Source of the DNA: Tianweitania sediminis
GTDB lineage: Bacteria > Pseudomonadota > Alphaproteobacteria > Rhizobiales > Rhizobiaceae
Reading direction: 5' to 3'
NCBI RefSeq assembly: GCF_017813335.1
Contig: NZ_JAGIYY010000002.1
Span: forward strand, 124,001 to 188,000
DNA: 64,000 bases
How positions within the stretch are numbered: position 1 is the stretch's first letter; each line of letters begins with the position of its first letter. The translations under genes were made by a program, and so were the position numbers. Below the pieces are notes generated by a model, which was not told the origin of the DNA, did not search any database, and saw nothing but the letters and a program-made list of their open reading frames with translations. Positions 23,296 to 24,663 of the stretch are shown in pieces.

Positions 23296-23515
23296 CGCGT
23301 TCTCCTGTTTCTTTGATCTAGGGGCAGCACGAATGGCATGCCGGTGCCGTCACAGTTAAGGCAGCAGGCAGGAACGACAATGGCAGTTCTAGCTGAGATT
23401 CGTTAGCGCCAACGCCGAATATGAAGGTTATCCCACGCTGAGATCGTCCCCAGCGATCTCGGAACCGGCTCAGAGAATCGGCATTGATTGCTCATGATAT
23501 GGGCACAGATTTTTA

Positions 23516-23544
23516 TTGCCCCTTCGGCGAGCAGAAGCTATAAC
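23516..23544 (+). promoter_or_regulatory. Sigma-70 promoter of the small RNA
   Basis: TTGCCC and TATAAC separated by exactly 17 bases; the expected start of transcription is near 23551, at the very foot of the first hairpin. Confidence 0.75.
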
Positions 23545-23550
23545 AGCGAT

Positions 23551-23628
23551 GTTGATTGTCCGACCTCCTCCCCGGACAATCACCTGAAAAAGCGCCCACC
23601 GGACCTCCTCCCCCGGTGGGCGTTTTCC
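23551..23628 (+). ncRNA. Small RNA with two anti-Shine-Dalgarno hairpin loops (alpha-r14/suhB/cuckoo-like)
   Basis: About 78 nucleotides. Hairpin 1 has a 9-base-pair stem (GATTGTCCG / CGGACAATC, 23554-23581), hairpin 2 a 10-base-pair stem (CGCCCACCGG / CCGGTGGGCG, 23593-23622). Both loops are the identical ten bases ACCTCCTCCC, complementary to the ribosome-binding AGGAGG. The second hairpin ends in TTTT and doubles as terminator. Rhizobial alpha-r14 RNAs (NfeR1 of Sinorhizobium; Rfam suhB) and the Rhodobacter cuckoo RNAs have the same CCUCCUCCC loops, and act by masking ribosome sites in mRNAs. The two-hairpin form here is shorter than NfeR1. It lies between the divergent-looking ends of galE (3' end) and the gcd operon (5' end). 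Confidence 0.8.
23593..23626 (+). terminator. Intrinsic terminator formed by hairpin 2 of the small RNA
   Basis: Ten perfect GC-rich base pairs, a ten-base loop and TTTT. In the other direction AAAAA (23587-23591) gives a short U-run, so it could also stop transcription arriving on the minus strand. Confidence 0.8.
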
Positions 23629-23649
23629 GTTGCAGGGGCGTGAGCGCAA

Positions 23650-24663
23650 TCAGGCGAGCGGGCGCATTTGCGCAGCAACGCTGTTGCGCTTCGACAAAGA
23701 CGCTTCCCAGGCGAGGGCATGCTCTACGATCCTGTCAAGATCGTCGTAGCGCGGCACCCACTGGAGCGATTGTCGAGCGACGCCGGCATCTGCGACCACC
23801 GCGGCGGCGTCACCGGGCCTACGCGGTGCCATCTCGACGGTGAAGTCGACGCCACTGACCCGCTTCACACTGTCGATCACGTCCAAAACGGAATAGCCGT
23901 GGCCATAGCCGCAATTGGCCACGAGGCTTCCGCCCCCATTGCGCAGCCGTGCCAAGGCAAGGCGGTGCGCTGCTACCAGGTCGGACACATGGATGTAATC
24001 GCGCACGCAGGTGCCGTCCGCAGTTTCGTAATCCGTGCCAAAAACGGCCATCTTGGGCCGCTTGCCGAGCGCGGTTTCGCTGGCCACCTTGATCAGGTGA
24101 GTGGCGCCAGGCGTGGATTGCCCGGTACGCGCCTGCGGGTCCGCGCCGGCGACGTTGAAATAGCGCAGTGCTGTGTAGGCGAAGGGATGCGCTGCGGCCG
24201 CGTCCCGCAGCATCCATTCCGTCATCAGCTTGGACAACCCGTAAGGGGATTCCGGCTGCTTCGGAGCGTCCTCCACTACCGGTTCAGCGCCGGCGCCGCC
24301 GTAAACAGCTGCGGTGGATGAGAAGATGAAGTGCGGGACCTTGGCGCGCACCGCGCTTTCAATCAGCGCCCGCGATTTGCAGGTGTTGTTTTCGTAGTAG
24401 CCGAGCGGGTCCGCCACGGACTCCGGCACAACAATGGAGCCCGCGAAGTGGATGATGGCATCAACCTCGTGCTCCTGCAGAAGCGCTTCCACCAGCGGCT
24501 GGTCGGCGATGTCGCCCTCAACAAGCTTCGCTTCGGGGGCGACAGCCCACTCGAAGCCGGTGGAAAGACGATCGAGAACAACGACGTTCTCGCCGGAATC
24601 CAGAAGTTCCCACACCATGTGGCTGCCAATATACCCGGCGCCGCCCGTCACCAGAACTGCCAT
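23650..24663 (-). CDS. galE: UDP-glucose 4-epimerase
   Basis: 337 residues. Rossmann start MAVLVTGGAGYIGSHMVWEL; catalytic Ser/Tyr/Lys in FSSTAAVYGG and PYGLSKLMTE; YFNVAGADP follows. Interconverts UDP-glucose and UDP-galactose, feeding galactose into surface polysaccharide. No sugar genes adjoin, though a polysaccharide cluster lies at the right end of the window. ATG at 24663 starts the fold. Confidence 0.95.
   Translation of the reverse strand: MAVLVTGGAGYIGSHMVWELLDSGENVVVLDRLSTGFEWAVAPEAKLVEGDIADQPLVEALLQEHEVDAIIHFAGSIVVPESVADPLGYYENNTCKSRALIESAVRAKVPHFIFSSTAAVYGGAGAEPVVEDAPKQPESPYGLSKLMTEWMLRDAAAAHPFAYTALRYFNVAGADPQARTGQSTPGATHLIKVASETALGKRPKMAVFGTDYETADGTCVRDYIHVSDLVAAHRLALARLRNGGGSLVANCGYGHGYSVLDVIDSVKRVSGVDFTVEMAPRRPGDAAAVVADAGVARQSLQWVPRYDDLDRIVEHALAWEASLSKRNSVAAQMRPLA

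Follow-up and report, generated by a model that had tools for sequence, protein, structure and literature searches.

A predicted free-standing, two-hairpin anti-Shine-Dalgarno RNA of the cuckoo type in Tianweitania sediminis

Two adjacent hairpins with identical loops lie in Tianweitania sediminis between a gene for a putative small membrane protein and a galE-like gene, which raises the question of whether they form a regulatory RNA and, if so, to which known kind it belongs. The whole stretch of 64,000 nucleotides around them, referred to here as the window, was analyzed together with genomes of the genus and family and with viral contigs. The element is very probably a cuckoo-type anti-Shine-Dalgarno (anti-SD) small RNA (sRNA), free-standing in the genome, that would silence mRNAs by pairing with their ribosome-binding sites.

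The predicted fold of positions 23551–23628 consists of two hairpins whose ten-base loops both read ACCTCCTCCC. The minimum free energy of this 78-nt stretch is −39.9 kcal/mol (z −8.03), and none of 200 shuffles folded as well. The exact loop 10-mer has only two copies in the window, both strands counted, and both are in the candidate sRNA; the expectation is 0.10 per window, two copies appeared in 0/100 shuffles, and a close motif pair was absent from all 200 mononucleotide shuffles. The stem sequences, TGATTGTCCG in hairpin 1 and AAAGCGCCCACCGG in hairpin 2, bear no resemblance to each other. The original prediction, which described a TTGCCC-N17-TATAAC promoter followed by two hairpins with identical loops on unrelated stems, is thus borne out by sequence and fold, with the promoter absent from a generic scan and its spacing kept in relatives. 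The coordinates are collected in Table 1.

Table 1. Positions of the candidate sRNA, its parts, its flanking genes and the prophage element of the same genome
Feature	Position	Strand	Basis or remark
−35 element TTGCCC	23516–23521	+	Direct sequence; TTGCGC at the matching place in both genus relatives
−10 element TATAAC	23539–23544	+	17-base spacer from −35; TATACA and TACAAA in the relatives at equal spacing (counted by eye)
Candidate sRNA, two-hairpin, cuckoo/ar14-like	23551–23628	+	Ends predicted, unmapped; fold, ar14 score, orthologues
Hairpin 1, 10 pairs	23553–23582; loop 23563–23572, ACCUCCUCCC	+	Fold, motif count, covariation
Hairpin 2, 14 pairs	23589–23626; loop 23603–23612, ACCUCCUCCC	+	Short U-run after it; fold, motif count, scan
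Upstream flanking gene, 130 aa	22903–23295	-	Membrane protein by look; used as synteny marker
Downstream convergent gene, galE-like, 337 aa	23650–24663	-	NAD-dependent epimerase, PF01370
Prophage two-hairpin anti-SD element	G000:C16:376192-376234 (within L379, G000:C16:370000-384000)	-	Same genome, Mu-like prophage

The generic sigma-70 scan called no promoter at 23300–23800; it requires the −10 element to have T as its sixth base, and TATAAC ends in C. The promoter assignment therefore rests on conservation in two relatives from the genus, in which, by eye, the spacing of 17 bases is kept together with TTGC and the initial TA of the −10 element. Hairpin 2 is absent from the plus-strand list of a generic terminator scan, whose loop limit of 8 is shorter than the loop found here, and is listed as terminator-like on the minus strand by the same scan. 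The U-tract that follows it on the plus strand is short (UUUU, partly within the stem), and a T-run after the last hairpin is also visible by eye in many of 20 stretches from relatives. Hairpin 2 is the probable terminator of the candidate sRNA. The galE-like gene reads toward the candidate sRNA, and its stop lies just before hairpin 2 on the minus strand; given this convergence and the terminator call on the minus strand, hairpin 2 may serve as a shared terminator for the sRNA and galE-like transcripts. Read on the minus strand, hairpin 2 (23593–23622) has the loop sequence GGGAGGAGGT, exactly complementary to that of the sRNA, and, judged by complementarity, a galE-side transcript could pair with the candidate sRNA through this loop.

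Conservation was followed within the genus, sampled by three genomes in all (that of the window, G001 and G002), and beyond it. The two-hairpin RNA lies between the same two genes in both of the other genus genomes. In the three-species alignment, all 20 loop bases are identical and 10 of the 24 stem pairs have changed on both sides, a number that none of 500 shuffles reached and that compares with 1–2 in slid controls. These double changes involve 7 of the 10 pairs in hairpin 1 and 3 of the 14 in hairpin 2, and 95.8% of alignment cells are paired (3/72 unpaired). A measure of further pair types was unremarkable, the observed value being reached by 71/500 shuffles. Although the covariation evidence comprises three sequences only, the alignment plainly displays the design principle that the original prediction expected relatives to reveal, i.e., loops that are fixed and stems that are free but paired.

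Outside the genus, the paired motif was found at 0/80 galE-like loci of named relatives (protein identity at most 80%) and at 0/28 membrane-gene loci of other genera; the 130-aa gene used as the marker for the latter matches no Pfam family with E up to 10. Among the membrane-gene loci in the family, of which 30 of 41 matches were scanned, the only positives were the window and G001 (G002 lay outside this sample). Seven larger stretches added a single loose hit pair (L223), which was rejected as it lies in and around an open frame and has no such hairpins. Because no orthologue turned up outside the genus, the candidate sRNA locus looks to be of modest age on these sequence comparisons.

The element was then compared with covariance models of known RNAs. 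Rfam ar14 (RF02344) matches at 57.6 bits (E 5e-10), just under its gathering cut-off of 58.8, and CcsR1 (RF02791) matches over its full model at 35.9 bits (E 2.8e-7), with a gathering cut-off of 65.3; the orthologues score 57.6 (G001) and 60.1 bits (G002) with ar14. Of the two Rfam models named for checking in the original prediction, ar14 thus comes close, and suhB gives no match at 23350–23750 with E up to 10. As both scores are below gathering, the element belongs strictly to neither model, though the anatomy of the family is present. Like cuckoo RNAs, which carry CCUCCUCCC in the loops of two or more consecutive hairpins, the element has two such hairpins, and its loops are fixed on diverging yet paired stems (in three species only). 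The three aSD-loop hairpins of ar14 are represented by two, and the co-transcription behind a DUF1127 gene that marks CcsR1 at the CIN1 locus is absent, both flanking genes being on the opposite strand. By the tests run, the predicted RNA is an ordinary conserved representative of an already described kind of silencing sRNA from alphaproteobacteria.

These data bear on a reading without any regulatory sRNA, in which the hairpins simply form a terminator region that separates the convergent galE-like gene from whatever lies upstream. The position of hairpin 2 just beyond the galE-like stop, its terminator-like character on the minus strand and its less changed stem, with both-side changes in 3 of 14 pairs, would suit such a region; however, hairpin 1 and the identical fixed loops would be left unexplained, as would the conserved promoter core with its 17-base spacing and the ar14/CcsR1 matches, and we consider this reading very improbable.

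Relatives of the silencer are common in the family. The ar14 model matches at E ≤ 1 in 37 of 41 genomes, that of the window included, and above the cut-off in 25, compared with 1/14 and 0/14 control genomes, respectively. Exact paired motifs occur in 104 of 121 family genomes, the backward control giving 0–1 matches per strand and genome. On contig C17 (L031, G000:C17:270500-273200), the genome of the window itself carries a tandem pair of three-hairpin ar14 copies located behind a 46-aa DUF1127 gene (PF06568), which matches the published CIN1 arrangement (PMC10253847). G001 and G002 carry three tandem ar14 copies behind a similar frame (L147 and L148), and G001 has one more, cut by the contig end. 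Among apparently isolated motif pairs, 20 stretches were chosen by eye and non-randomly from the matches listed; with one mismatch allowed and chance hairpins included, 17/20 contained at least three hairpins and 3/20 contained two (L207, L209 and L216). A further TTCCTCCC hairpin is visible by eye upstream in L209, and L207 lies within L380, which has two stretches of 76–78% identity with the viral contig L320. Three hairpins thus look usual in this family of genomes and the two-hairpin form a minority, as far as these non-random picks indicate.

Paired motifs also occur in viral contigs. Both motifs lie in stems of at least six pairs in 35 of 120 motif-pair stretches among the matches listed, compared with 0/120 among the matches listed for the reversed-motif control, with six loci common to both sets. 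The viral stretches are L259–L378, and the hairpin loops there carry CCTCCTCCC. Of the 35, 21 have two hairpins, 13 have three (by appearance often ar14 genes of a host) and one, L341, is a repeat array; with a looser geometry, seven further loci qualify, for a total of 42 (25 two-hairpin, 16 three-hairpin and one array). When ten neighboring proteins were searched, one per locus from the prophage of the same genome and nine viral contigs, 8/10 matched a PHROG and 6/10 matched one with a named function, i.e., major head protein (the prophage, L379, and L359), RecE-like exonuclease (L318), anti-repressor (L294), single-strand annealing protein (L278) and DNA repair protein (L324). In the prophage, the first loop motif starts 18 bases past the stop of the major head gene (phrog_371) and before the next open frame; in the Mu-like L359, it starts 16 bases past the head-gene stop, on stems unrelated to those of the prophage. 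The prophage copy scores 45.2 bits with ar14, below the cut-off, and none of the 11 loci searched reached gathering for ar14 or CcsR. In L320, the viral contig also bearing paired hairpins, positions 883–1007 match the Rfam Phage_DGR RNA.

The position behind the Mu-like head gene holds the paired motif only sporadically. Of 25 loci, the gene was unplaced in three and the frame chosen was clearly wrong in several; among the remainder, two TCCTCC counts were obtained at just two loci, the prophage of this genome and L503, and in L503 a single hairpin accounts for both. The paired motif was found in 0/6 of the phages RC1, RS1, vB_ThpS-P1, vB_RhkS_P1, vB_PeaS-P1 and Fc02 in the 130 bases after a related head gene. 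A literature search for phage-borne or prophage forms found nothing, which is weak evidence of absence. It is conceivable, though unlikely in our judgment, that alphaproteobacterial genomes and their phages share paired anti-SD hairpins as a mobile module, which would act in the phages as cis or trans brakes on translation between structural or early genes, and that free-standing two-hairpin sRNAs may derive from phage copies by domestication. If they function, the pairs carried by phages would give the same module a further role.

For the window element in particular, domestication would mean that a prophage-borne paired hairpin was its source and not a three-hairpin ar14, and it would still be a silencing sRNA. 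Two-hairpin forms do stand beside phage genes, the genome's own Mu-like prophage included, but none of the five proteins near the candidate sRNA matches a phage-specific PHROGs family of named function, their results being no match or families that are unnamed or concern general metabolism or a regulator. Since the element also has a promoter-like site of its own, its synteny is stable within the genus, and the stem sequences carry no lineage signal, a phage source has only a very slight chance of being correct.

If the element is a cuckoo-type silencer, its mode of action, from transcription and the transcript ends to termination, target pairing and silencing, can be proposed by analogy with NfeR1 of S. 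meliloti. A housekeeping-type promoter would give a transcript of ~78 nt, in which two rigid stems of arbitrary sequence would each present one single-stranded 10-base copy of the ribosomal anti-SD sequence, and hairpin 2 would also stop transcription. Either loop may pair with the purine-rich Shine-Dalgarno sites of many mRNAs, block binding of the 30S subunit and thereby lower translation, so that the two loops would be interchangeable and silencing redundant, as in NfeR1. In the genome, GGAGGAGG occurs 3–11 bases before ATG at 32 sites vs 4 for the backward pattern; 10 of the 30 sites examined among these 32 precede a frame of at least 60 codons, and two of the ten frames resemble ABC transporter parts (named by eye). 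Of 52 CCTCCTCCC sites found, 30 were examined, and only 2 of these give GGGAGGAGG before the start of a frame of at least 60 codons. These counts are compatible with an NfeR1-like regulon and are not proof of one, and target prediction from them is weak. That the loops act instead as a sponge or decoy, with purine-rich RNAs of other kinds (for example GGGAGGAGGT in galE-side transcripts) as their main partners and not ribosome-binding sites, is barely plausible: a minus-strand transcript of hairpin 2 would bear the exact loop complement and the Caulobacter sponge RNA CrfA is reported to titrate the SisA–D sRNAs (PMC12559287), but there is no sign of galE-side transcripts extending to the hairpin, and the characterized relative NfeR1 acts at mRNA start regions (PMC10746234).

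Among known systems close to the silencer proposed here, the alpha-r14/NfeR1 RNAs (RF02344) share with it the anti-SD loops, the highly variable stems and a sigma-70-type promoter with N17 spacing. NfeR1 is reported to be Hfq-independent and to have three redundant aSD loops, which pair at the translation initiation region of ntrB and so silence it (PMC10746234); it is abundant in glutamate/mannitol medium, after salt shock and during symbiosis (PMC7143759). In contrast to its three hairpins, the window element has two, and the 5′ part of the ar14 model falls on the promoter here. The CcsR1–4/RS0680a RNAs of Rhodobacter share the two stem-loops with an aSD motif in each; unlike them, the window copy is neither clustered nor located behind a DUF1127 gene. 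The cuckoo RNA family (Reinkensmeier and Giegerich 2015) has a variable number of CCUCCUCCC hairpins, free stems and several copies per genome, and no difference from it appears among the features named in citing papers and in the 2011 paper of the same group. The kinship to alpha-r14/NfeR1 and cuckoo/CcsR RNAs that the original prediction proposed thus holds, whereas its suggestion of a possible new minimal type does not: according to Reinkensmeier et al. 2011, RS0680a of Rhodobacter consists of two stem-loops, each with an anti-SD motif, SmelC201 is a two-module form, three- and four-hairpin forms are also described in S. meliloti, and a single family in which the module count varies is proposed (PMC3927594), so the two-hairpin form is already in print. 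What the locus adds, found within its genus only in these searches, is a clean, solitary example with two hairpins for a silencer family already known. The C17 locus of the same genome has identical loops, but its copies, which score 93.5 and 91.9 bits with ar14, have three hairpins each and stand in tandem behind a gene; the copy in the window stands alone, with a promoter-like site of its own.
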